Shown: positions 33-24,107 of the stretch, one piece after another
Layout of the letters: each line of letters begins with the position of its first letter
How positions within the stretch are numbered: the first letter of the stretch is position 1
Source of the DNA: Baffinella frigidus
Taxonomy: Eukaryota > Cryptophyceae > Cryptomonadales > Baffinellaceae
Assembly (NCBI GenBank): GCA_026770585.1
Contig: MU647236.1
Location: 49,845-73,951 of the forward strand
Length of the DNA stretch: 24,107 nt
Direction of reading: 5' to 3'
Notes under the pieces: generated by a model
The model's database searches: none
Told to the model about the DNA's origin: nothing
The model's input: the letters and a program-made list of their open reading frames with translations, nothing else
Translations under genes and position numbers: made by a program

Positions 33-3000
33 GTGCCGCGAGACAATCCTGCCCTCCAAGTGGTACCAGTACGTTATGACCCGCGCCAAGTAAACCCCAC
101 ACCCTCAACCCCCAAACTCCAAACCCTAAACCCTAAACCCCAAACCCTAAACCCTAAACCCGAAGCCCTAAACCCTAAACCCTCAACCCCAAACCCCAAA
201 TTTACGCTGAATGCTTTCCAACCCTAAACCCTAAACCCTAAACCCTAAACCCTCACCCTCTAAACCCTCAAGCCCAAACCCTCACCCAGGTCCGGCAAGA
301 TTTCGCTGTACATCAACGGCGGGCTGTGCGCGGAGGTAAACCACAACCCCAAACCCTAAACCTCAAACCCTAAACCCTAAACCCCAAACCCTAAACCCTA
401 ACCCCCAAAACCCAAACCCCAACCCCCAACCCACAACCCCCAACCCCCAAACCCCAAACCCCAAATCCCAATCCACAAAACCCAAACCCTAACACCCAAA
501 CCCCACACACCAAACCCCAAACCCTGAACCCTAAAACCCTCAACCCTCAACCAGGGCACGCCGGACGAGGCGAGTGGGTACAAGGACTTCATGGTCCTCA
601 ATCCGTACAGCATCGAGTGCGTTACCCGACACCCCCCACCCGCAGCCCCGAATACCAAACCCTCACAACCCCACACCCGAAGCCCCAAATACCAAACCCC
701 CACCCCTGAACTGTGATACCTAAACCCCAAACCCTTATCCCTGAATCCTAAACCCCGATCCCTCATCCCTCATCCCTAAACCCCAAACCCCACACCCTAA
801 ACCAAACACACAACAAACGACCAAAAGTACATAAAACCAATCCCTAAATCCCGCATCCATCATCCAGGTTCATGGCCGACTTCGCTGGCAAGAACGGGGA
901 GGGGTACGTCTCGCACATCCGCATCTTCAACAAGACCCTTGACGAGGAGGAGGTCAGATCCCTAGCTCTCTCACCAAACTCTCAAAACCTGGTTCGGGCC
1001 CACTGATTCGGTGCGCATGGGCGCTTTTCCGCGCTGAAGTTGACGGATGTGTGCCGCACGCCCCGCGTGTCAACTCGCTGGTGAACCCCCACCCCCACAT
1101 CCCTAACCCGCAACCCGATAGTCGGTAGCGAACTTCGCTTGGGGCAGAACGGCGGGGGGTTCGTATCGAACATTCGCATCTTCAACAAGACCCTTGACGA
1201 GGAAGAGGTCCCGTGTTCTTAACCACCGACTCTACCCCCTCAACCGAAACCCCAACCCGCATCTCTACCACCTAACCCGAAACCCGAAACCGCCGTCGAT
1301 ACCCCCTAAATCGAAACACGAAACCGCATCCCGTAACCCCACACCCTGATGCCTCGCAGGTCGCGAAGGCGTGCGTGTGCACGCTCCCGTACTGCGGCGA
1401 CCAACGCGAGAACCAGATCGCCATCGGGGCAGTCCTGTCTTGTAGTGCTGCCTCACATGCTGACTAATAGTATTCTAGTGCTGACAAATACTGTTATAGC
1501 GCTGACTAATAGTATTGTAGTGCTGACGCCTACCCCATAACAGGTCGCGAAGGCGTGCTCGTGCACGCTGCCGCACCGCGGCGAACATTGCAAGAACCAT
1601 ATCGTGACCGCATCCAGTATTATCGTGCTGACTAATAGTGTAACACCGCTGACTAATACTGTTATAGCGCTGACTAATAGTATTGTAGTGCTGACGCCTA
1701 CCCCACAACAGGTCGCGAAAGCATGCTCGTGCACGCTGCCGCACCGCGGCGAACAATGCGAGAACCAGATCGTGATCGGGGCAGTCCCCCTCGCGACGGA
1801 GTACTCCTCGCACTTCGGGGAAGTCAACGGGATGCTCAACTCGCAGAGCGGGTGCGCAAACCATACTCATTTGTGATGAATACGCATACACCCTAGACAC
1901 TTCTAACCCTGAACCCTGTCCATTTCTGACCGTAAGCACTATCCATTGCTCAACTCGCAGAGCGGGTGCATCCTACACCCGAAACCCAAACCCCGAAACC
2001 CTGTTCATTTCTTGGAACACACCTTGGTACTCCTTCGCTGAACCTTACACCCTATTCGTTCCCGTGTTCAAACCTTATCCCTTACCTAAACCCTCAACCC
2101 GCACACCCTACTCATTTGTAATGAATACGCATACACCCTAGACAGTTCTAACCCTGAACCCTGTCCATTTCTGACCGTAAGCACTATCCATTGCTCAACT
2201 CGCAGAGCGGGTGGATCCCAAACCCGAAACCCTGTTTGTTTCTCAACCCTATTCATTTGTTGAACCACACCTTATCCCTTAGCCGAAGCCTACAACCTAA
2301 ACCCTGACCCTACACTCTGTTCATTTCCGTGATCAACTCTTAACCCTGAGCTAAACCCTACACCCTACACCCTACACCCTCAACCCCAAACCCTAAACCC
2401 TCAACCCTCACCCCTCAACCAGGTGGATCACTTCGACAAACAAGTACGGCCAGTACATGCAGTTTGACACCGGCCAGGTTCAGAGCTTCACCCCAAACTC
2501 TCAACCTCCTTAAACCCAAACTCTCAACCTCGATTAACCTTAATCCCCAAACCCCAGCCCCCAAACCCGAAACCCTAAACCCGAAACCCGAAACCCCAAT
2601 CCCCAAACCCCAAACCCTAAACCCTGAAGCCTCACACAGGTGCAGAGCGTGATCGGCGTGTCGACACAGGGGCACCGCACCCAGAACAAGTGGGTCAAGT
2701 CGTTCCAGGTGACTGCCGAACCCGCGTTGCTTTACACCAATCGCGTCGGTATCGTCCCTCCTTCGCACCATTCGTGACTAATCCTGTCTTCTCCTGGCAC
2801 TAACGCGGATTGGTCACCGCACCGAGAACAAGTTTGTCAAGTCGTTGCAGGTCACCGTCCCTCCCGCCTCTCCTTTGTACCACGGGTGGACACACGTTTC
2901 TTTTCCTGGTGCTGGCTCTGTGTGCATTAGTCACCGCCCTGGTACAAACGCCGCTCATTATGTACATTAAGGGCTTAACCCCCCTTCGATGTGTACCAGA

Positions 3001-3880
3001 CGTCGTCTCGATGCACGGCCACTGAGAAAGAGTTATTAGAGCACGCGACTAAACCGTCTCGGGGCTCTCGATCGCAGGTCAAAATATTAAAGGACGGCTC
3101 TGGGTCCAGTGAGGGTCCGTTGTTTGCGTCCATCCCTCCTACCACGCGTGACTCATCCTCCCTTTCCTTGTTTTTCGGCTGCCTGAGTAGCTACTTTCGG
3201 CTGCCTGGGTAGCGACGTTCTACCAAAAACATTAACGCATCAACGCCGCCCGGATCAGTCATCTGGAGGCTCCTGAGATACTGTTTATAGAGAACGCGAC
3301 TAAACCATCTCGGGGTGCTTGTTTGCAGGTCAAAGTCTCAAAGGACGGCACTAAGTGGCTCTGGGTTCAGTGCGGGTCCATTGTTTGGGTGACCAACAGC
3401 AAGAACCGCCCCATAACCGTCTCGGAGCCCTTGTTCGCAGCCCAGTTCAGTCAACCGGCTCGCGTGTTTGCAGGTCAAGGTTTCGAAGGACGGCAACGAG
3501 TGGCTCTGGGTCGAGTGCGGGTCGATCTTCGATTCCAACACCGACAGGAACTCGCGGGTCTGTGCCATGTCCCGAACCCTGAACCCTGAAACCTGAACAC
3601 GGAGGTGCAGTGCCCTCACCCTAAACCCTGAAGCCCGAACCCCACTCACAAAACACTCAACCCTCAACCCCAACCCCCAAACCCTGAACCGTAAACCCTC
3701 AACCCTAAACCCCAAACCCCAAACCCCAAACCCCAAACCCCAAACCCCAAACCCTAAACCCCAAATCCTCAACCCTGTTATCTCCACACCAGGTGAGATC
3801 GATCTTCCACGAGCCGATATTCGCGCGCTACATCCGCATCTACCCCGTGTCCTGGGAGGGTGCCATCGGTCTTCGTGCAG
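33..3880 (+). CDS. Module A: LamG-like tail + F5/8 type C domain 1 (exons 1-9)
   Basis: Exons: 33-89, 290-335, 555-616, 868-952, 1712-1851, 2423-2477, 2640-2708, 3474-3557, 3793-3880. Exons 1-4 give the second half of a jelly roll: KWYQYVMTR, then ISLYINGGLCAEG, then YVSHIRIFNKTLDEEEV, matching the Laminin_G_3-type pattern of a strand, an NG turn and an I/W-x-x-x-L-x-x-x-E helix. Exon 5 adds a Cys pair (CSCTLP...QCENQ). The discoidin part runs from MLNSQSGW through YMQFDTGQ, VIGVSTQG, WVKSFQVKVSKDGNEW and FARYIRIYPVSW to IGLRAG. These are the usual F5/8C hallmarks (aromatic-x-Q-x-D-x-G, GV-x-TQG, S-x-DG-x-x-W, ARYIRI-x-P). Exon 9 ends in a GC donor (3881). The LamG start lies upstream of the window. 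Confidence 0.85.
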
Positions 3881-6800
3881 GCACGCTCCCGCCACTCTCT
3901 AGTTGCTGAGTTTCACTCTGTTTGGTCTCACCAATTTGGTCCAAATTTTAGGTTTGGGAAGGGACCCCAAACCCTAAACCCTAAACCCTAAGCCCTAAAC
4001 CCCAATCCCCAAACCCCAAACCCCAAACCTCAAACCCCAAACCCCAAACCCCAAACCCCGAACCCCGAACCCCAAACCCCAACGCATGCCCGATTGTCTG
4101 CGAGCTGCCGTGCCTCGGGCCGACGCACGATCTCGATTATTCCCAGCGCTGCCTCAGTCTATTTGGGCTCACCACTTTGTTGAAACACGGCTGTTCTCTG
4201 CTCGAAAGTTAGACGGATGTGTACCGCGAACCCAGCACGTCAACTTGCGAATAGTCGGTCAACCCCAGATTCGAACGCAGGCGCGATTGTCTGCGAGAGG
4301 CCGTGCCTCAGCCCGGCGCACGTGCTCGATTACGATTTCCAGCTCTCGCTGGTGACACCCTTACCCGAAACTGTCAGCACTATTATGGTATTAGTCAGCA
4401 CTATAATACTATTAGTCAGCACGACAATACTATAAGTCAGCACATAATACTAGCACTAAAATACTATTGGTCAGCACTACATTAACCGTCGGCCCGACGC
4501 AAGAGCTCGATTACGACTTCCATCTCTCGCTGGTGAACCCCCAACCCCAACCCTAACCGAAACCCTAACCCTTAACCCTAAACCCTAAACCTAATCCCTA
4601 CATCCAGCCCCGAATCCCTATTCCCTATTCCACAAACCCTGAACCCTACACACTCTAAACCCTGAACATAATCACTAAACTCAACCCCTGACCCCTTACC
4701 CCACCCGGAGGTGTCCCGCACGCGCACCCCCCCCCCCCTGGAGGCGCAGTGGGGTTTCGGGGAGTTCTGTGAGGTAGTCAGCACTACAACACTATTAGTC
4801 AGCACTACAACACTATTAGTCAGCACTACACCACTATTAGTCAGCACTACACCACTATTAGTCAGCACTACACCACTATTAGTCAGCACTACAACACTAT
4901 TAGTCAGCACTACAACACTATTAGTCAGCACTACAACACTATTAGTCAGCACTACACCACTATTAGTCAGCACTACAACACTGTCCGGACAAGATCGTGC
5001 CCGGGGGTAAATTTGGCAACTTAACATCTGTTTGCCTTGACGGTTCTCAGAATTAAGAACCCCGTGATGAATGGATTCTGGTACAAAAAGGTGCAACAAG
5101 TATTATAGTGGTACAAAACTCGTCAACCTTGGCGATTCAAGATTCGACCCCCGGTAGGCTCCTGTCCGGTTGTGAGCACGAAACCGTAATGCCTGAAGCC
5201 GAACGCAGGTGTCTCGCACGCTGGGGCCGCCTCTTCAGGCGCAGTGGGGTTTCGGGGATTTCTATGAGGACACGGGTGGCGACGGCAAGTACTCGTACAA
5301 GTGAGGCCCCGCACCCTGAACCCGAAACCCTGGACCCTTGTACTAAAGTGATCCCGTACCCTAAACCCTGAACCGTGAATTCAAGTTAAAGCATGGTTTA
5401 GGACTGACTAATGGTATTATAGCGATGACTACTTGTAATATACCACTGACGAACAGTATTGTTGTGCTGACGCATAGTATTGCAGGTTGGAGGAAGGGCA
5501 GGGCCTGGAGTTGCAGATGGAGCGTTGCATCAACAACACGGAGGCTTGATAGTGTTGTACTGCTGACTTATAGTAATTATTGCTGACTAATAGTATTTTA
5601 GCGCTGACTAATAGTATTTATATCGCTGACTTGTAGTACTGTAGTGCTGACAAAACGCGCGAAACAGGTTTGCGGAAGGGTACTCATAGTATTGTATTGC
5701 TGACTTATAGTATTATAGCGTTGGCTAGTACTATTATAGTGCTGACTAACAGTATTATACGTGCAGGTTTGCGGAAGGGCAGGGCCTGGAGTTGCAGATG
5801 GAGCGGTGCATCAACAACACGGACTCGTGGACCATCTACATGTGGATGAAGATCGACACCACCACCGGCTTCCGGCGGATCATCACATCCCGCGGGTGGG
5901 CGGACTACGGCCTGTACGTCAACAAGTACCTCCAGATGGTCCCGGCAGGCGCGCACATGCAGTGCCCCGAGCCGCTGCGCCCCGACAGGTACGCCTAAAC
6001 CCTAAACCCTGAACCCGAAACCCGAAACCCTAAACCCGAAACCCTAGACTCTCAACCCTTCACCCTTCACCCTTCACCCGAAACCCGAAACCCGAAACCC
6101 GAAACCCTGAACCCCATTCCTGCTCCCACTAAAGCTCAACCGCGACGCCCTAAAGCATAACCCCCAAACCGCAAACTCCAAACCCCAAACCTCAAACTCC
6201 AAACTCCAAACCCCAAACCCCAAACCTAAAGTCTAAAGCGTAACCCCCTTTGCGCAGGTGGTACAAGTTCTACATGACGCGGGACGACGAAGGCCTGCTC
6301 AAGATGTACCTCCACGGGGCCGTCTGTGCCGTGGGGAGCCCTCCCTACAAGGACCACTACCAGCTCAATCACGGCTCGCTGATTTTCTTCAAGGATGATG
6401 GTCAGTCAACCTAAACCCTTCCCAAACCCTAAACCTCCAAAACCCTAAACCCTCAACCCTCAACCCTCAACCGTAAAGCCCTAAACCCCAAACCCCAAAC
6501 CCTAAACCCTCAACCCTAAACCAGGGGATGAGAACACGGGGGGGGCGGTCAGGCGCATCAAGGTCTGTCCTCGAATCCCGAACCCCGGAACCCGAACCGG
6601 GAAACGGGGATTGACGGCGCGCCTGCACGCATTCTAAACCCGAACCCCGAAGCCCTACACGCTCCTTCACAGAAGACGCGACCCGAAACCCGAAACCCGA
6701 AAAATGGAACCCGGAACCCCACACAAAAAGGTGAGGACCAACGCACGAAAAATAGAGGAGTGACACCCCGCCCCCGCGCATCCAGGTGTGACCAGATGAA

Positions 6801-9083
6801 AAAACTAAACCCGAATAAAAAAAAATCGAACCGGAAAAACTCAGACGGACACTGCGCCTCCACACACGCGTGGCCGCACGCCTTCATGAAACCCGAAGCC
6901 CTCCACGGATAATCCAGGATCGGCGGCGCGCCCCCCCACGAAACCCTCAACCCGAAAGCAGGTGTGGCCGCGGACTTTGACCGAAGACGAGATCGAGGCT
7001 CGCGAGGAGTGCAAGCAGCCGCGCCGCGGGCTCCCGTGCCCCTTCACCGTCGTGTACAACGCGCCGCTGCACCGCACGGTGTACTCGACGATCAAGGGCG
7101 GCGCGGCGCCGGGCGCCGGGCTGGGGCGCGGGCGCATCAACAGCAAGCAGGCGTGGTGTCCCGCCGCCAATTCCAACGCCCAGTTCATGCAGGTCTGAAC
7201 CCCGAACCCCGTGGCACGCTGTGCCACCTCGAAGAACCCGACACCCGAATCCGAAACCCGACACCCGAATCTGCCCTCCCGAAACCCTGAACCCGGACAC
7301 CGAAACAGGTGGATCTCGGGTTCATGCAGAACGTGTCGGGGATCGTGACGCAGGGCCGCCGCGATGAGGACTACTGGGTGACACCCCGCGCCCCTTCTGA
7401 CACCCCGCGCCCCTTCTAGCTCACACTCTGAGCCCCTTCTACCTGACACCCCGAGCCCCTCCTTGCTGACACTCTGAGCCCCTTCTACCTGACACTATTA
7501 GCCCCTTCCAACTAACGCGACACTCCGAGCCCCTTCTAACTCACACTCCAAGCCCCATCTATCCACTACCCTCGGACGCCCCTCGGTCCCTAGAGATGTG
7601 CTACCGTACGATTGCCGCTCAGAGCCCCTTCCAAATGACACTATGGGCCCCACACAGGTTACTTCCTACACTGTCAAGGCGAGCGAAGATGGGATTACCT
7701 GGACGGACGTCGGGTGCGGGGGGGACATTGAGGGCAACACCAACCGCGGGAACAAGGTCTGGCCATAACCTGTGCATACAGCTCTGCCTCACGTGAGGCA
7801 GCTGCGAATAGTCTGCCAGTCAACCGGTTGCCTGGCAGACTATTCGCAAGTCGACCCGCTGGGTGTGCGGTACGAATTCGCCCACTTCGGGGCGGGGAAC
7901 AGCCCGGGCCCACCTAATTGGCGAGCCCAAACAGACTGAGACAGAGCTGGAATGCACGGCCAGGATTGTACGGCAGGATTGGACGGCCAAGCTATGTCTC
8001 AGTCTACCCTCCCCCCCGGCAGATGCGGCACGAGTTCGCGTTTGACTAGCAGACAGCGTCCAGTGTAAAGCAAAAAGGTTCCAGTGTAAAGTACACAGCT
8101 GCTGGGGCTGGAGAAGGCCCCGCATCGACCAACCAGGCACACCTCACACGCTGACACACGCTGCCACACGCTGACACTCGGCGAGTCATTGCTGACACGC
8201 TGACCCCAGGCTCCAAATATGAGGTTAGCGGCAGGACATAAGTGCCAGGCTTCAGGATGGACGAATCCCCGCCGCCCCGGCACAATCCCCGCCGGCCCGG
8301 CACGCTGACACGCTGGCGCTGCCCCCCCCGGCAGATGCGGCACGAGTTTGCGAAGCCGATCCTCGCCAAGTTCCTGCGGATCCACCCCCAGACGTGGCAC
8401 GGCGCCGCGTGCATGCGCATGGGCGTCCTCCTCTGTGAAGGTACCCACCACACCCTACCCCCTGAACCCGTTGTCGATTAACCGGTAAAACCGAAAGCCG
8501 AAGCCCGCCACCCGAAACCCGAAACCCGAGGGGCGTCCTCCTCTGCGAAGGTACCCACCACACCCCAAACCCCCATCCACGAACCCGGAACCCGGAACCC
8601 GGAACCCGACACCCAAGACCATGATATCCTAGAGGAGCAACTGCACCCTGCTGAGACGTGGTACGGCGCCGCGTGCATGCGCATGGGCGTCCTTCTCTGT
8701 GAAGGTACGCTCGCACCCTTACACCCTGCCCACATTCTACACCCTACACCCTACACCCTACACCCTACACCCTACACCCTACACCCTACACCCTACACCC
8801 TACACCCTACACCCTACACCCTACACCCTACACCACACAGCATGGTCTCCTACAGGAGAAACTGTACCCTCATGAAAAAATCTCCCACCGGACAAACTGT
8901 ACCCTGCTTCACCCGAACCCCCAACCCCTGAACCGTAATCCGTGATGCAGGCCCGTGCGTCGAAGGGCAACTCTCCTACACATTCGAGAGCACTTTCGCG
9001 TCGGAGACCGCGGGGCCCTCGCTGATGCCGGCATGGGGCGACGGGGCGTTCGACACCAACGGGTATGCGTTTGACCCTCAATC

Positions 9084-9150
<67 letters not shown>

Positions 9151-9181
9151 ACCCTTAACCCTCAACCCTCAACCCTCAATC

Positions 9182-9248
<67 letters not shown>

Positions 9249-12200
9249 ACCCTTCACTCTCAACCCTCAACCCTCAAACCTAAACCCAAACCCCTAAACC
9301 CTAAAGCCCTAAAACTCCAAACTCCACACCCCAAACACCACACAACACACACCAAATCCTACAACCCACACCCCAGACCATAACCCCTAAAACCCTAAAC
9401 CCTAAACCCTAAACCCTAAACCCTAAACCCGAATGCAGGTATTCTTTCAAGGATGGGGTGGGGTTCGAGCTGGACTCGCGGCGCTGCACGAACCAGACAA
9501 AGGAGTACACCATGATGATGGAGATGCAGCTCTCCAACGTGGAGCGCGAGCAGGCGAGTCGAGTTAGGGGTCAGAGAGAGAGAGAGAGAGAAACCAGGGT
9601 GTAGGGGCTTCAGTTGTGGGCCAGTGGTTAGGGGTGGGGCTGGGCGGTGCGGGTTGGGTGTGAGAAGTCGAGGCCCCACCACCTGTTCATTAGGGTTTGG
9701 GGTTTGGGGGTTAGAAGGAATATACCGTGTTGATGGAGATGCAGCTCTCGAACGTGGAGCGCGAGCAGGCGAGTGGAGTTAGGGGTCAGAGAGAGAGAGA
9801 GGAACCTGCAAGGGTGTAGGGTGTAGGGGCTTCAGTTGTGGGCCAGGGGTTAGGGGTGGGGCTGGGCGGTGCGGGTTGGGATACGCCCCGACGCCTGGAA
9901 CTTGAAGTTCCAGGTTGAAGTTCCAGACCGACTTGAAGTTTCCAACTTGAAGTCCAGACCGACTGTGCGCGATGTTTCTCACACCCAACCTTCTCACACC
10001 CAACCGTCAAGGCGCTACCACCTGTTCATTAGTGAGGGTTTGGGGTTTTGGGGTTAGGAGGAATACACCGTGTTGATGGAGATGCAGGTCTCGAACGTGG
10101 AGCGCGAGCAGGCGAGTCCCATCACCTGTTCTTTGGAAACCCTCAACCCTGAACCCTAAATCCTGAACCCTAAACCCTGAACCCCACACCCAAAACCCTG
10201 AACCCTGAACCCTGAACCCTGAACCCTGAACCCTAAACCCTAAACCCTAAACCCTAATCCCCAAACCCCAAACCCCAAACCCCAAACCCTAAACCGTACA
10301 CCTTGAATCAGATACTCTTCACGATGGACGGGTGGGACGAAGGTGGCCTCGGGGTCAAGAACTGGCTGCAGCTGTCCCCCACCGGGGCCAACATGGTGTG
10401 TGAGGGCACGCGCCTCAAGCCGGATACCCTCTACAAAGTCGGAATCACGCGCACGTGACACCCCAATCCCCGAAACCCCACACCCTAAATCCCCTGAATG
10501 TTTTACATTAAATGCTTTACAGTGAGTGTTGTACTTTCGAACCCGAAACCCTCAACCCCAAACCTCAGCCCCTGCTCAGCCGTGTTGGTATGGTAGTAAC
10601 AAACGTCTTTCTCACTCTCACAGCGTAACGTCTCTTTCAACGAAGTAACGTCGCTCCCAATCTCACAATCTCACAGGGATGCCGGAGACATTACGCTCGA
10701 AACCCGAAACCCGAACCCCTCAACCCCAAACCCGAAACCCCAAACCCTAAACCCCAAATTCCACACCCTAAACCCCAAATTCCACACCCGAAACAGGGAG
10801 GAGGGAGACATCACGCTGTACCTCAACGGCGCGGAGTGCGCGGCGGGCAACCCGCCCTTCTTCAACAACTACCAGCTCAACCCGAAGCGCATCCTCTTCC
10901 TCCACGACGATTTCGACAAGACCAACCCTGCCGGGGTAAAGAGCCCCGAACCCTGAACTATACCCCCCTGTTTCTTCGCGTCCACCCCTGATCAACTCTA
11001 AGCCCACACCCTCACTCCTCAACCCCGCAACCCCTCAACCCCTCAATCCCTCAACCCCTCAACCCCTCAACCCCTCAACCCCTCAACCCCTCAGCCCCTC
11101 AACCCCTCAACCCCTCACTCCTCAACCCCTCAACCCCTCAACCCCAAACCGCAGGTGATCCGTTCGCTGAAGCTGTGGGACCGCGCGCTAACGCGTGTTG
11201 AAATCGCATCCCCCTCCTCCTCCTGCGCTCTCCCGGCGGGTGGATCAGCGTGCCTGAACACCCCCGTAAACCCAAAACCCCACACCAGGTAATCCGTTCG
11301 CTGAAGCTGTGGGACCGCGCGCTGACGCGCGAGGAGATCGCATCCGAGGCCGAATGCGCGCTCCCGGCGGTCGGATCCGCATGCACGAACAACCTCGCGC
11401 TCAATGCGATCTACGATCGCATCTCGTACTCGTCCGTGCAGGTAACCTCCAACGCACTCTTCCAAAAACATAATTGTAAACTGTTTTTGGCAATATAACC
11501 ATTGTTTCAAAAAGGGTTGTAACGTCCGCGTGTGTCAAGGGTCGCGTTGCGCCCGACAGTTTTGCGCCGTAAGTCCTCATCTCTAACTAATGCCAGAAGC
11601 TAACGCCAGCGGACCCTTTTAGCCTACGGTAGGAACCCCCCTCCTGCTACGACGTTAAAACAAAAAGGTCTTTAAACGTCGTAGGAGGGGGGCTCCTACC
11701 GTAGGCAATCCGTAGGCTCTAAGTACCTCGCTGGCGTTAGCTTTTTGCATGATAACGGTGGCGTGCTTGATGGCAGGGCGGCGCGGAGCCCGGGGACGGG
11801 CTCGGGACGGGACGCCTCAACTCCCTCCAGGGCTGGGCACCCGCGAGCAGCAAGGTCCAACCCCTAAACCCGAAACCCTACACCCTACTCCCGAAAACCG
11901 AAACCCCACACCCCACACCCCACACCCCACACCCCAAACCCCAAACCCCAAACCCCAAACCCCAAACCCCAAACTCAGGTTGGCGAGTGGATGCAGATCG
12001 ACACGGGGGAGGTGCAGAGCGTCGTCGGCGTCGTGACCCAGGTGCTGCCCTGCACCCTGCACCCTAAACCTTCTCAACCCACACCCGGAACCCTACACCC
12101 TGGACCCTACACCCTGAATCCTGCTGAACCCACGGCGGTGCCACCCGCCATTTGTCAAGCTATGCCAAAGTCAATTTTTGAGGGGCTGCAGGTGCTGCCC

Positions 12201-15200
12201 TGCACCCTACACCCTAAACCAGCTGGACTCAAACCTCAAACCCTGAACCCTAAACCCCAAACCCTAAACCCTGAACCCCACACCCTAAACCCTGAACCCC
12301 AAAACCCTGAACCCTAAACCCTCAACCCCAAACCTCCTGGTGCCGCCCGTCATTTGTCAACTATACCCCAAGTCTTTTCGTGGGGCTGCAGAACGCGCGT
12401 GTCGCTGGTGAACACACGCATGGGGGGTGAGGAACATCAACCTTACACCCTCAACCCCACACCCTCAACCCTACACCCCAACCCCCAAACCCGGAACCCC
12501 AAACCCTAACCCCTGAACCCTCCACCACCAGGGTCGGCGCGACGCAGAGATGTGGGTGAAAGAGTACTCTGTGCATTCGAGCATCGACGGCCAGGAGTGG
12601 CACCAGGTAACTCTACACCCTCAACCCTCAACCCTTCAACAAATTCACCTCTCGCGACCCTGCACCCGAAACCATAAACCAATAACACGGAACACGAAAC
12701 CAGAAACCGAATCCGAAACCCGAAACCATAAAACATAAACACGAAACCAAAACACCAACCACTAAATCCTAATCCCGAAACCCTGCACCAGGTTCAGTGC
12801 GGGCGCTCGTTCAAGGCCAACGCCGACAAGAATTCCAGGGTAACCCTATCTCCTAGAACCTAACAGTCAACACTACAATCCTATAAGTCAGCACTACAAT
12901 CCTATTAGTCAGCACTACAATCCTATAAGTCAGCACTACAACACTGTGAGTCAGCACTATAATACTATTATCCAGCACTACAACACTATCAACGTCGAAA
13001 AGAACTCCAAGTTTGCCACCCACCGACGTCTTTACGTGTTCTCTGAGGTGTTTTCTCAAGTGTTTTCATCGTGCGGTGTTTTCATCGTGCATGTTCTCTC
13101 AAGTGTTTTCATCGTGCGGTTTCATACCAGCGAAGTGCCGTGGTGTGATCGTGTGGGGCGGCCCTCGACCGGGTTGGTCAACCCTCGCACGCAGCACTAT
13201 CCCAAACCCCACACACTAAACACTGTTAACACTAGATCCTGCACCAGATGAAGGTTGTGTTCCGGGTACCGATCAAGACGCGGTACATCGGGATGCTCCC
13301 GGAGGCGTGGACGTCCCCCATCGGGCTGCTACAACACTATTAGTCAGCACTATAATACTAAACAGCACTAAAACACTATAAATCAGCACTACAACACTAC
13401 TAGTCAGCACTACAACCCTATTATTAATAACACCAAACACCGACAAATAGGTGAAGGTTGTGTTCCGGGTACCGATCAAGGCGCGGCACATCCGGATCCT
13501 GCCAGAGGTCCTCCATCGGGCTGCTACAACACTATTAGTCAGCACTGAAATACTATTAGTCAGCACTTCAACAATACTAGTCAGCACTACAACACTTTTA
13601 ACACCAAACACCGACAAATAGGTGAAGGTTGTGTTCCGGGTACCGATCAAGGCGCGGTACATCCGGATCCTCCCAGAGGCGTGGAAATCGTCCATCGGGC
13701 TGCGCGCCGGGGTGTTGGTCTGCGAGCGCGACTGCACTGGTAAGCGCCCAGACCCTAAATCCTTTCGAGCAAACTCCATGAGCTGATCCTGATAACCCTG
13801 AGCCCAAACCCCTGAACCATAAACCTTAAAACCATAAACCATGAACCATAAACGTAGGGTTTACCAACCCCTCAACCAAACCCCCTAAACCCTCCTCCCC
13901 AAACCCCAAAACCAGACGGACAGCTGCATTACGAGTTCACCAAGGGGACCTTCATGTCGTCGACGCAGGTGACCCCCAAGCCCCACACCCAACCCCCAAA
14001 CCCCAACACACTACACACCAACCACCAAATACCAAACCCTAAAATCCAGGGTCCCGGGACGCGCCGTGGGGGGGTGGCACCTTCTCGACAGCCCTCACAC
14101 CCCCCAACCCCCACCCCCCCACCACAAAACACTCAACACTCAACACTCAACACTCAACACCCAACACGAAACACGAAACATGAAACATGAAACACGAAAC
14201 ACGAAACCAGGGTCCCGCAATCGACGCGCCGTGGGGGGATGGCACCTTCTCGACAACCCTCGGGTGGAAGTTCGCTGGGGGAGAGGGCCTCGATCTCGAC
14301 CAGGTAAACCTTAACTTAAACCCTCAACCCTGAACTCTAAACCCAACACCCTGAACCCTAAACCCTACACCCTAACCCCTAAACCCCACACCTCACACCC
14401 TGAACCTCACACCCTAAATCATCAACCATAAACCCCCAACTCCAAACCTCTGACCTTAAACCCTGAACAATCAACAATCAACAATCAACAATCAACAATC
14501 AACAATCAAGAATCAACAATCAACAATCAACAATCAACAATCAACAATCAACACTCAACAATACATCATAACCCACAACCCACAAACCCCGAACCCCAAA
14601 CCCCAGGACGAGGAGGGGTGCATGAACAACCACGTGCCCAAGCCCGCGACGCTCAACACGGCCTACTCGATCTTCATCGACATGCAGCTCTCTTCTGTTG
14701 GAGGAGGCTGGCAGCGCATCATCGGCTCCAAAGGGTACCACCCAATTTCCCGCCACCTTACAGATAGATTCTTTCTCAGATTTGGCTTGGCATTGGAGTC
14801 ATTTCGTACTTTGGGGGGTTGCAATACCGGGATTTGTAGGGGTTGCAATCCAAGGAATCCTTGAGCTAAATGAAGGGGTTGCAATACCCGGAATCCTTAG
14901 GATGGACGCCCTGCGAAATAGAATCTGTTAGGTGACGCGGCACACGGCCTACTCGATCTTCATCGACATGCAGCTCTCTTCTGTCGCCGGGGGCTGCCAG
15001 CGCATCATCGGCTCCAAAGGGTACCCCCCCGACCTCTTCCTGTCACCTTATGGATAGATCGTATCTCGTATTACACGTGGCGTTAGAGCCAGTTCGTACT
15101 TTGGGGGGGTTAAAATACCAGGGTATGCACCCGACATCGTTGAGATGGATGCCCCCAATCCCAGCTCTGTTTGACCGACTATTCTCAACTTGGCGGTTCT

Positions 15201-18200
15201 GGGTGTGCGGTACACCTCCGTCAAGTTTGGCGCGGGGAAGAGCCCGGGCGCGCCAAATTGGACATGCAGATGTCTTCTGTTGGAGGAGGGTGCCAGCGCG
15301 GTATCGGCTCCCGCGGGTAAACTAAACCCCACACCCCAAACGCTGAACCCCTGATGCGTAGGGTTTTCCTCAACCCTCAACCCTCAACCCCGGGCAGCTC
15401 ACACACCCTCAATCCCGAAACCCTCATCCCTAAATCCCTCATCTCTCAACCCTGAACCCCGAAAATCTCGCACCCCTAAACCCTGGCCCCTACACCAGAT
15501 GGGGCGATACGGGGTTGTACGTGAACGAGAACCTGCTGATCTACCATCATTTCGGAAGAATACTGAACCCGTATCACGTCCATGCTGTTAGGCATGTGTT
15601 TAATTCCCATGGTGCTAGGCATGGGTTTCATTTTGTCCTAGTGTAGATAACTCTTCTGAAATGTCCCGGGATGAACAGTTGGGGCAACACGGGGCTGTAC
15701 GTGAACGAGAACCTGATGATCTACCCTCCGAGCGCGGGCATCTCATTCCGGAAGAATCCTGAAACAGTAGGCCTGTGCGTGTCTTAAAGATGATGCCATG
15801 CACGTCTTAGTGCACACAACTCAAATGTTCCGGAATTAACCAATGAAATGTTCCGGAATTAACAACAAATGTCCCGGGATGAACAGGTGGGGCGACACGG
15901 GGCTGTACGTGAACGAGAACCTGATGATCTACCCTCCGAGCGCGGGCATCAAGTGCCGCGAGAAGCTGGTACACCCCAAACTCCAAACCCTAAACCCCAA
16001 ACCTAAAACCCGGCGAGAGGGTAAGGAGGGAAGGTGGCCCCAGCCGACACAGCCCCAAATCCTGAACCCTACACCCTAGACCCCACAACTAACCCTCACC
16101 ACGGAACCCGAAACCAGGTACCGAACAGGCTGTACAAGATCGGGATGACGCGGTCTCTGGACGGGGAGGTGACGCTGTACATGAACGGGGCGATGTGCGC
16201 GCATGGGACCCCGCTCTTCAACAAGGGCTTCACCCTCGATCAGGTCCCCTCCCCTACCTCGGGAGGTTCTAGTCAGCACTATAATTGTATTAGTCAGCAC
16301 GATATTACTAATAGTCAGCACTATGATAATACTAATAGTCAGCACTATAATACTATTAGTCAGCACTACAACACTAGTATGAAATGGGGATATGTGCGCG
16401 CACGCGACCCCGCTCTTCAACAAGGGCTTCGCCCTCGACCAGGTCCCACACAGGGCTGTATGGGGGGTTATCAAAAGTCAAATTTCCACAAGGATTTTTT
16501 TGTTCGGCCCCTCCCCGATGCTTGTTCGAATTCACATCGGTGCAGGACCAGATGACTGGAAAACTCGTGCCTTTCTCTGTTAAGATTTTCCACAAGTCGA
16601 CCCGCCGGTTCCGATAACGACCCTGAATTGCCCTTAACCTTCGCCCTCACCCTCGACCAGAAGAACGTGTGCTTCTTCCACTGGCTCGGAGCACGCTTCG
16701 GGGTATCTGAACTGTAGAGAAACAAAAATTAAACCCCAGCCCTGAACCCTGCACCCTAAACCCTGCACCCTGAACCCTAAGCCCTAAGCTCTAAACCCTA
16801 ATCGCGCGTGGCAGCACAACGTGGACTTCTTCCACGATACCGGATCCGAGCACGCCTCGGGATACGTCGCGCAGATCCACGTCTGGAACAAGGTGCACCC
16901 TAACCCCCTCAACCCTACGCTATCACTTTCTGGCAACGAAAATGACTGCACGCTTGGATTATATTAGTGATAATAAAGCATTTGAGTAGTAATTTTCATG
17001 TGATATTAAAGCATATGTGTAGTAATTTTCGTTGCGAGAACAACGTGCGGTTCTTCCACGATACCGGATCCGAGCACGCCTCGGGATATGTCGCGCAGAT
17101 CCACGTCTGCACCCTAACCCTCAAACCCTACACCCCTCCCTCCTCGAGGTCTTCCATCAGAAACCCTAAATCGTAAACCATAATCCCCAGCCCCCAAACC
17201 CCAAACCCCAAACCCTATCCTCCAAACCCCAAACCCCAAACCCTGACCCTCAAAACCCCAACCCGAAGGTGCTGTCGGAGGCGGAGGTCGCCAACATGGC
17301 TGGCTGCACCCTCTCTCTCAAGGTAACCGCTCAACCCTAAAGTCTGAGTTTTAGGGTTTATGCCCTCTCTCTCAAGGTAACCGCTAAACCTTAAACCCCA
17401 AACACCCAAACCCAAAACCCTGGAGCCTGAACCCTAAAACCTCAAACCCAAAACCTAAAACTTGAAGTCGCCAACATGGCTGGCTGCACCCTCTTTCTCA
17501 AGGTAACCGCTAAACCCCAAACACTAAACACTAAAACCCAGAACCTAAGCCCTGAACCAGACCGAACAAACCCAAACCCAAAAACCGAACAAACCCAAAA
17601 CCAAAACTCCTAAACCAGGCCGAACAAACCCAACCCCCAAAACCCAAACCTCTACACCAGGCGAAATCGTGCTCGCGGAACATCATCTATTCCCCATCCT
17701 CGGCCAACTTCATTTACTCCTCGATCAAGGACGGCGGCTCCCCGGGCTCTGGACTTGGCCGCGGCCGCCTCAACTCCGCGCAGGCAACCCTACACCCCAA
17801 ACCCTAAACCCCAAACACTAAAACCCAAACCCTAAACCCTAAACCCCAAACCCCAAACCCCAAACCCCAAACCCTAAACCCTAAACCCTAAACCCTAAAC
17901 CCTAAACCCTAAACCCCAAACCCTAAACCCTCAACCCTCAACCCTGAACCCTGAACCCTAACCCCTAACCCATAAACCCCACGCAGGCCTGGGCGGCTGG
18001 GCAATCAAACGGGAACGAGTACGCACAGATCGACATTGGGGAGGTGGGGTCCATCTCGGGTGTCGTCCTCCAGGGACGCCGCGACGCAGGTGAACCCTAA
18101 ACCCCAACCCCCCCTAAACCCCACACCCCAAACCCCCAAACAGAAAACAGAAAACAGAAATACTAAAACATAAAACATAAAACATAAAACCTAAGACCTA

Positions 18201-21200
18201 AAAACTAAATTCTAAAACCCGAAAACTAAAACCTAAGCCCCGACGCAGCCAACTGGGTCAAGTCGTTCACGGTCCTCGTGTCCTCGAACATGCAGAGCTG
18301 GGCGCCTGTCATGTGCGGGATGCGGTACGCCCCGAAACCCTAAGTGGACCAAATCGCGAATCCTGTTTTTTGGATGCCAGGGCGGCTTTTGCCATTCCGG
18401 TCGATTTCGGCCGCGGAAATGGCTCGAGTCACATCCTCGATTTGGTTTTTAGTCAACACACGCACATAGCGAACCAAGTCGTTTGTGTCCTCGAAGGTGC
18501 AGAGTTGGGCGCCGGTTATGTGCGGGACGCGGTACACCCCGAAACCCTGAACCCTAACCCCCGAAACCCTGAACCCGAAACCCGAACCCCAAATTAATAA
18601 TAAATAAATGAACCGTACACCCTAAACCCCTAAACCCTAAACCCTGAACCGTAACCCAGGTTCGAGGGGTCAACGGACCAGAACACCAAGACGAAGATCG
18701 TGTTTCGCGAGTCAGTGCGTGGGCGCTACGTCCGCGTGATCCCCACCGCGTGGCAGGGCTGGTCAGAAGCCCAACCCCCACACCCTAATAGTCAGCACTT
18801 CAATACTAATAGTCAGCACTACAATATTAGTAGTCAGCACTATAATTCTAATATTCGGCACTACAATACTAGTAGTCAGCACTATAATGCTAGTAGTCAG
18901 CACTACAATACAAGAACACCACGAAGACGAAGATCGTGTTCCGCGAGTCAGTGCGTGGGCGCTACGTCCGCGTGATCCCCACCGCGTGGCAGGGCTGGTC
19001 AGAAGCCCAACCCCCACACCCTGATAGTCAGCACTATAATTCTAATAGTCAGCACTACAATATTAGTAGTCAGCACTATAATGCTAATAGTCAGCACTAC
19101 ACTATTAGTAGTCAGCACTATAATACTTGTGGTCAGCACTACAATACTAGAACACCACGAAGACGAAGATCGTGTTCCGCGAGTCAGTGCGCGGGCGCTA
19201 CGTTCGCGTGATCCCCACCTCGTGGCAGGGCTGGTCAGAACCCAACCCCAACCCAAACCAAAATCAAAACCAAAATCAATACCAAAACCCCTAATCCCTT
19301 CCCATTTCCTGATACACACCTAATCCCGTATCCCTTAGCTAAACCCTGAAATATAGACCCTGAACTGGGCGGGGTGTTCGCGTGGTCCCGACCACGTGGC
19401 AGGGCTGGTCAGAACCCCAACCCCTACACCCTAATAGTCAGCACTTCAATACTAATAGTCAGCACTACACTACTAGTAGTCAGCACTATAATTCTAATAT
19501 TCGGCACTACAATGCTAGTAGTCAGCACTATAATACTAGTAGTCAGCACTGCAATAGTAGAACACCACGAAGACGAAGATCGTGTTCCGCGAGTCGGTCC
19601 GCGTGGTCCCGACCGCGTGGCAGGGCTGGTGCGAATCCCAACCCCCACACCCTACACCCTAAACCTAGAAACTACTCTCGAGAGTTGACCCTCCGCCATT
19701 GAACCCTACGCACTAAACCCCAAACCCTACACCCTAAACCCTAAACCCTGAACCCCCAAACCCTAAACCCTAAACCCTAAACCCCAAACCCCAACCCCCA
19801 AACTTAGAAACTGTCTATTCTCGTAAGATGACCCTAAACCCCTAAAATCCTAAAATCTTAAACCCCTACACCCTACACCCACTGGCCGACACCTGGCCCG
19901 CAGGCCCGCGATGCGCCTCATTTCTTAACAAACCTTCCCTGGGCTAACCATCAATCTTAAACCTTACACCTTCGACCCTGAACCCCTAAACCCTAGACCC
20001 TTGACCCTGAAAAGAGAGAGATTGGTAATTGATTGCCAAACAACCAGCGTCAGCGCCGCACATGCCTTAGCACTGTGCTCCTCACTGTACCTGAACCCTA
20101 AACGCACCCCCCCAAAACCAGGCCCGCGATGCGCCTGGGGATCCTTGTGTGTGAGAAGCCGTGTGAAGAGGTACCCTCACCCCCAAACCCTAAGCTCTCA
20201 ACCCTCAACCATAAACCATGGTTGAGGCCACGAAACCTCAAACCGTAAACCCTAAGCCCTCAACCCTCAACCATAAACCATAAACTATAAACCATGCACC
20301 CTAAACCATAAAGCCTAAAGCCTAAACCATAAACCTGAAACCCCACACCCTACACCCCGAACCCTAAACCCTAAACCCTAAGACGCTTCAACACCCTGGT
20401 CTTCCTCAACCCTCAACCCAAACCCCAAACCCCAAACACCACCCCCCAAACCCGAAACCCCACACCAGGGGATGCTCGACTACAAGTTCGAAACATCCCT
20501 CCTGTCCGACACCGAGGGGCCCTCTGCGGACGCCGCGTGGGGCGAGGGCACCTTCGATGCAGTCCGTGGATATACCTTCGCTGCGGGGCAGGTGCGCCTC
20601 TCTCGCTTTCTCTCTCAACGGCTTATTCGGTTTCTGAAATCTGGGGGCACCGGGCTTGTTTTCCTGCGAAAGTTGCCGGGTTTGCCACCAGGAACCGGAA
20701 GCGGCAACTTAACAATAGCCCGCGACGCAGGGGCTGGTGGTGGACGCGTCGACGTGCCTCTTCAGACTTTTGCCAAGTTGCGCTTCTGGGCTATTGAAAA
20801 GTTTACTCTTCTGGTTTCGCAGGGGCTCGTCTCTCTCTCAAAGGCTCATTCAGTTTCTTCGATCTGGTGGCACCGGGCTAGTTTTCCTGCGAAAGTTGCC
20901 GGATTCGCACTGCTGAACCAGGAGCGGCAACTTAACAATAGTCCGCGACGCAGGGGCTCGTGGTCGATGCGTCGACGTGCGTGGTGCATCCTGAGGAATG
21001 GACGATCCTCATCGAGGCCTCTATTTCGAACGCTGCGGGGGGGTGGCGCGAGCTTCTCGGGTCGAACAACTGGGGCAACTACGGGATCTACGTCAACGAC
21101 AAGTTCCAGCTGTACCCGGAGGGCACGGGGTTGATGTGCCTCGAGAAGATCAAGAGCAACCACTGGTATACCCGCAGACCCTTCCTCGGCAAGCTGCACC

Positions 21201-24100: not shown

Positions 24101-24107
24101 GTAACAA

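Follow-up and report, generated by a model that had tools for sequence, protein, structure and literature searches.

Short arrays of a scarce 21-bp satellite lie between direct copies of exon edges in the cryptophyte Baffinella frigidus

The genome of the cryptophyte Baffinella frigidus contains short arrays of a 21-bp satellite (unit AGTCAGCACTAYAAYACTATT) that are repeatedly found between two direct copies of the adjoining sequence, in the gene studied here the edge of an exon. We denote this layout A-sat-A, with A being the duplicated stretch, and lean towards the view that the satellite blocks are filler captured during the repair of widely staggered breaks, with the target duplicated by fill-in. 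The window under study, a stretch of 24,107 nucleotides corresponding to positions 49845-73951 of contig C861 in a 382-Mb genome assembly of 1364 contigs, is taken up by a single intron-rich gene on the + strand (33..24107). The 51 predicted exons, joined in frame, give 1773 codons without a stop, and the 50 predicted introns have GT-AG (47) or GC-AG (3) borders; the gene model is a prediction from sequence, and the gene ends on both sides beyond the window. The exon numbers and coordinates proposed in an initial annotation of the window agree with those of an independently derived exon chain. CCCTAAA-type heptamers account for 35% of the bases of the window and the satellite for 8%, the latter as 10 forward (F) arrays, 1 degenerate single unit and 4 reverse (R) stretches between 1429 and 21300. 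Its units are arranged head-to-tail with a period of 21 bp, as in a classical satellite, with no more than approximately 10 units per window array.

The satellite is present in 7 of the 50 introns. The exon chain shows the same pattern as the initial annotation, in which the unit of exon piece plus satellite is repeated at exons 5, 12, 28 and 39 and occurs once at exons 10, 11, 27 and 33 (exons and their copies lie on the + strand, F arrays on the + strand and R arrays on the − strand). Intron 4 holds 2 truncated copies of exon 5, each with the 3' splice-site edge (1357..1435 and 1536..1610, the second with a 91% match to the next copy) and each followed by an R array (1429..1535 and 1613..1703), ahead of the intact exon 5 (1712..1851). 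The intact exon 10 (4281..4351) is separated by an F array (4372..4487, gaps 2 and 1) from a copy of its 3' end (4489..4532). A partial copy of exon 11, visible only by exon search (4742..4774, 94%), ends at an F array of about 10 near-perfect units (4769..4990), and in intron 11 an R array (5392..5487) precedes a truncated copy of exon 12 recovered by the same search (5486..5542) and further R arrays (5541..5765), between which a 13-bp piece of the exon 12 start was recognized by eye. In intron 27, the F array (12856..12996) precedes a 20-bp match of 85% to the exon 27 end, a degenerate copy below threshold. Two truncated copies of exon 28 (13246..13329 and 13444..13524) alternate with 2 F arrays (13323..13432 and 13518..13605) upstream of the intact exon (13622..13739); the homology of both copies stops at the same base, CATCGGGCTG|C, confirming that the exon piece breaks off at the satellite edge. 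Exon 33 (16118..16243) is followed by an F array (16264..16385) and a copy of the exon end with the first intron bases (16383..16447). The most extended series follows exon 39 (18660..18761), where F arrays at 18777..18919 and 19015..19156 (gaps 0 and 0 in both cases) each precede a further copy of the exon end and intron start (18910..19012 and 19146..19249). A short copy of the exon end (19376..19409), set off from the preceding copy by non-satellite filler (by eye), another F array (19423..19563) and a last copy of the exon end and intron start (19559..19643) complete the series, and the order of unit variants is partly common to these intron 39 arrays. The F array of intron 42 (21197..21300) has no flanking exon copy of at least 20 bp.

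When each array was tested singly, 11 of the 15 window arrays had flanking direct repeats scoring above the best of 200 shuffles (ten at 72-177 and one at 42, against shuffle maxima of 22-30), with aligned repeats reaching 93 bp. For the arrays at 4769, 5392, 12856 and 21197, no flanking direct repeats above the shuffle maximum were found, and the flanks used for the array at 5541 contain satellite themselves. An exon-versus-intron search yielded 38 intron matches to the 2 neighbouring exons, 20 to the upstream and 18 to the downstream one, all on the + strand and 33 of them ending within 3 nt of the shared splice junction; matches to non-adjacent exons numbered 5, of which 3 were on the opposite strand. 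Exon-edge copies of at least 20 bp occur in 18 of the 50 introns, namely 6 of the 7 with satellite versus 12 of the 43 without (Fisher p 0.006), a comparison to some extent confounded by the greater length (median 488 versus 202 bp) and lower heptamer content of the copy-bearing introns. The earlier statement that the blocks lie mostly between exon copies holds up, with an exon-edge copy in 6 of the 7 satellite introns and flanking direct repeats above the shuffle maximum at 11 of the 15 arrays; both orientations, as had been described, occur for the satellite but not for the exon copies. Since 12 of the 18 introns with exon copies are free of satellite, the duplication process favours the satellite but does not depend on it and is not specific to it. 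Local direct duplications are also numerous across the window once satellite and heptamer have been masked. The copies of at least 20 bp diverge from the exon by 2-26%, which makes an assembly error unlikely.

The association extends beyond the window. Across the 382 Mb, a 20-base stretch of the unit is matched exactly 175 times, 103 times in forward and 72 times in reverse orientation, whereas its reversed control has no match. The listed matches were merged by hand into 47 clusters, and 20 stretches in listing order as well as 12 shorter stretches at clusters with several listed matches were sampled. Together with the window, these 32 loci yielded 52 arrays; flanks could be tested for 50 of them, 40 lying elsewhere and 10 (after merging) in the window. 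A strict signature, defined as a direct repeat scoring at least 40 with both gaps to the array of at most 30 bp, was found at 15 of the 40 arrays outside the window and 4 of the 10 inside; the corresponding counts were 37 of 2089 for random positions and 5 of 181 for heptamer blocks of at least 60 bp. This enrichment bears out the proposal that the block behaves as an insert accompanied by duplication of adjacent DNA. The first 20 loci contributed 11 signatures among 26 arrays and the later 12 loci 4 among 14. When the score threshold was kept and any gap allowed, repeats were seen at 20 of the 40 arrays outside the window and at 6 of the 10 inside it, versus 115 of 627 control positions. Flanking repeats at this score were direct at 26 of the 50 arrays and inverted at 1. 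The control positions were drawn from the same loci as the arrays, because independent stretches mostly read N (16 of 20 wholly and one about half); the approximately 8.8 kb of usable independent sequence was too short to give a rate, with 9 local pairs in direct and 1 in inverted orientation, and 4 stretches from WD40 genes were useless as controls because WD40 repeats are themselves direct repeats.

Genic location was checked against protein families at 3 loci and was clear at 2. Translated, both duplicated stretches of locus L062 give pieces of a myosin motor (Pfam Myosin_head, E ~0.001, short of the curated cut-off), and one of them matched 26 PDB sequences, every one of which carries the name myosin. 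In L074, 2 arrays adjoin 2 exons whose matches to the CobN/Mg-chelatase profile lie next to each other (679-705 and 709-736), with BchH (magnesium-chelatase H) as the best NCBIfam match. The peptide of the third locus, L090, had no protein-family match above cut-off, and further loci have a coding look by eye. An open frame runs through copy, satellite and copy in L090 (554-984), where the 21-bp unit reads as the heptapeptide SQHYNTI and is stop-free; a retained satellite could thus be translated.

The position of the satellite relative to the copies is informative. Of 20 sets (the 15 strict ones from elsewhere in the genome and 5 from the window), 19 are free of satellite within 60 bp beyond the 2 copies, the single exception being L075. 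Thus, the satellite came in at the joint and not within a pre-existing duplicated unit. Satellite and duplication probably arose together; satellite entry exactly into a pre-existing joint is a less likely alternative. The aligned repeats of the 15 strict cases outside the window measure 38-79 bp, with no fixed length, and the start and end phases of 42 arrays outside the window are no more clustered than those of 60 simulations (p 0.38 and 0.07). A constant array-end phase, which had looked convincing in the window, was accordingly rejected, and the variable duplication length combined with the lack of a constant end phase does not fit fixed-end cut-and-paste or introner mechanisms. For the same reasons, the description of the satellite as an element in the usual sense is not supported. 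Nor is the idea that it carries coding DNA along: the duplicated stretch is the local target and differs from site to site.

A repair event of the following kind would account for the layout. A staggered break would arise from 2 nicks, one on each strand and separated by tens of bases, fill-in of both single-stranded ends would generate 2 copies of the stretch A between the nicks, and satellite filler joined between them would complete A-sat-A. Where A extends across an exon-intron border, one copy would keep the exon and its splice site, whereas the other copy would become intron together with the satellite, so that the gene would survive the insertion. The reach of the duplications across splice junctions suggests that inserts persist in genes in this manner, with one copy restoring the exon. 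Once 2 copies of A are present, unequal exchange or slippage could add further (sat A) units, which would fit the A-sat-A-sat-A cases. We infer that a break occurred and was filled in, where the satellite DNA came from, and that the introns are spliced as predicted; the direct repeats in question flank 15 of the 40 arrays outside the window, far above the random rate given above, but not the remaining arrays.

Several observations weigh against capture during staggered-break repair. The genome-wide scoring of flanks did not refute the idea of an insert with adjacent duplication, although 25 of the 40 arrays outside the window lack the strict signature and 20 lack any direct repeat at score 40 regardless of gap; age, masking or another route may account for the 25. 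Abundant filler would be expected to predominate, yet the scarce satellite outdoes the commoner heptamer, so that a preference has to be added to the model. The satellite-free majority of exon-copy introns would fit fillers of varied origin, yet heptamer blocks and dispersed elements resembling miniature inverted-repeat transposable elements (MITEs; strict signature at 7 of 126) are rarely flanked by the repeats. Furthermore, 14 of the 47 listed clusters have a neighbour within 50 kb, compared to approximately 2-8% under chance placement if 300 or 60 Mb of the genome could be searched, and the host gene alone holds 9 satellite groups, a clustering that the repair model does not predict. The units of the window gene are no more alike among themselves than between loci (p 0.88 and 0.60), leaving local copying of arrays unsupported, and a DNA search with one stretch revealed no second copy of exons 32-34, empty allele or block-free paralogue among the matches listed.

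The preference for one satellite could be explained if the satellite were truly mobile and had a means of mobilisation of its own. Extrachromosomal circles are one example, and another is a satellite RNA that undergoes target-primed reverse transcription in which the second nick is widely staggered; long target duplications of variable length would result. Its dispersal over many contigs in both orientations, its arrays in genes as unrelated as those for myosin and Mg-chelatase H, and the equal similarity of units within and between loci, as if drawn from a common pool, point in the same direction. Nevertheless, we consider such a unit somewhat improbable, given that fixed ends were not detected, no constant tail was noticed by eye, the duplication length varies and the same gene has frequent duplications with other fillers. 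A related and conjectural proposal, which we regard as doubtful though worth stating, is that the satellite is a mobile filler for which a dedicated route, by way of circles or RNA copies, leads preferentially to broken exon-intron borders. Target duplications of 40-90 bp would intronise the insert, and the satellite would then represent a class of intron-building repeat distinct from both transposons and ordinary satellites.

Template switching in replication or repair would yield the same product if the polymerase jumped to a satellite at another place, copied part of it and re-entered upstream of its exit, leaving A twice with satellite between. Variable A and arbitrary array ends are what such jumps would produce, and the local clustering of arrays would fit a nearby template, but the units of the window gene are not more alike than those of other loci, and we hold this route to be unlikely. 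Plain tandem duplication of exon-intron segments already holding the satellite would involve no insertion at all. The multi-copy cases at exons 5, 28 and 39 do look amplified as (A sat) units, and local direct duplications (at least 28 bp, within 1.2 kb) are pervasive in loci L060-L079 and the window, with 290 direct versus 56 inverted pairs, the satellite lying between the copies in only 26 of the 290. However, this process predicts satellite beyond one outer copy, which is missing in the 19 sets described above. As the first step, tandem duplication is therefore largely refuted, and as a full explanation very improbable, whereas a part in later amplification is likely.

Elsewhere in the genome, satellite stretches reach 842 bp, and at least one of them (L078) has repeated non-satellite pieces inside. 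A further run of many 21-bp arrays spans ~7 kb of contig C607 (113-120 kb), perhaps in a second gene like the host gene. The long centromeric or otherwise heterochromatic arrays of classical satellites were not encountered, only short dispersed ones, but with 16 of 20 control stretches all N, much of the genome may be out of view. A conserved core of the unit was considered and abandoned, as an unbiased count showed only mild conservation (GTCAGCA 85-92% versus 75-88% at other fixed positions). Long patterns of the 21-mer had no match in GTDB genomes or IMG/VR, and the satellite had none in a phage collection or Rfam; a 16-base pattern of the unit matched 29 viral-contig stretches once each, which we attribute to chance.

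Other repeats are plentiful. Several families of short (~100-160 bp), partly palindromic MITE-like elements are common to many loci (L060-L109) and the window, where they occupy 4128-4268, 7793-7957 and 16923-17010; their low signature count led us to reject them as equal partners of the satellite. The degenerate heptamers that pack many window introns are CCCTAAA-like (telomere-type) and, by eye, for the most part show their C-rich side on the coding strand; intron 20 (9554-10311) has G-rich stretches instead. Intron 43 has a distinct 14-bp tandem repeat (ACCCGAAACCATCT) at 21467-21589. The notion that old introns are remnants of the same process was dropped, because the in-register similarity of intron starts and intron ends to the neighbouring exon is not significant (p 0.086 and 0.29), although 25 of the 50 downstream exons start with GT. 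The product of the host gene has F5/8 type C and Laminin_G_3 domains, and the 3' part of the gene (23420-24107) shows a weak Ice_binding (DUF3494) match (E 4e-5, below the curated cut-off). The genome has 12 matches to the Ice_binding family, all marked above the family cut-off, which, taken with the exons of a magnesium-chelatase H gene, would suggest an alga living in the cold. No related proteins were found at E 0.001.

If correct, our reading describes an unusual route for the spread of repeats and the growth of introns, and bears on the dispersal of satellites in the form of short arrays and on the growth of introns by added sequence. The genome holds many separate events, each recorded by 2 copies of A, so that break-repair insertion, template switching and transposition can be distinguished. 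We found no report of a satellite with this habit in the open-access literature, most subscription journals being beyond the scope of the search. The initial annotation knew of no described element of this kind, which agrees with the literature searched as regards transposons but not as regards target duplication around inserts, described as an outcome of staggered-break repair (PMC7215372, PMC3443670).

Among known systems, the closest are these insertions. Staggered-break repair with insertion is invoked for intron gain in Daphnia and other organisms (PMC3443670), and horse telomeric repeats are inserted with target duplication at 3 of 66 loci, plus 2 with deletion and addition as well (PMC7215372). 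As here, the target is directly repeated on both sides of foreign or repeat DNA, a layout attributed to staggered-break repair. Only a minority of the horse insertions show target duplication, whereas a single 21-bp satellite shows it at 15 of 40 arrays outside the window. Flanking repeats of reported intron gains are called short, whereas the repeats described here measure 38-93 bp and the window copies reach splice junctions. Direct repeats of 4-30 bp at or near the borders are reported for 213 introns (PMC11782384). Small tandem duplications are ascribed to CST-guided Pol alpha fill-in of complementary 3' overhangs followed by end joining (PMC8355091, PMC5730883); there too the overhang sequence is directly duplicated, but the copies are in tandem, whereas here they enclose the satellite. 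In rice, patch-mediated break repair (Vaughn and Bennetzen 2014), as summarized in PMC7407515, involves natural insertions that make local tandem duplications, as here, with no single preferred satellite filler in that summary.

Introners likewise are short dispersed sequences that occupy introns in several genes and are edged by direct repeats. Their mechanisms (PMC9860276) involve fixed ends and target duplications of 3-9 bp, or else terminal inverted repeats, with some families having neither, whereas here the direct repeats are 38-93 bp long and inverted flanks were found at 1 of 50 arrays. The similarity of introner copies reaches near both splice boundaries, whereas the satellite arrays described here are variable and embedded in longer introns, with heptamer or exon copy towards the splice sites; some R arrays come within ~30 bp of a splice site, on the 3' side only (both by eye). 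DNA transposons and MITEs have fixed ends and a target duplication of fixed length, neither of which is seen here. Finally, the head-to-tail tandem unit is shared with classical satellites.

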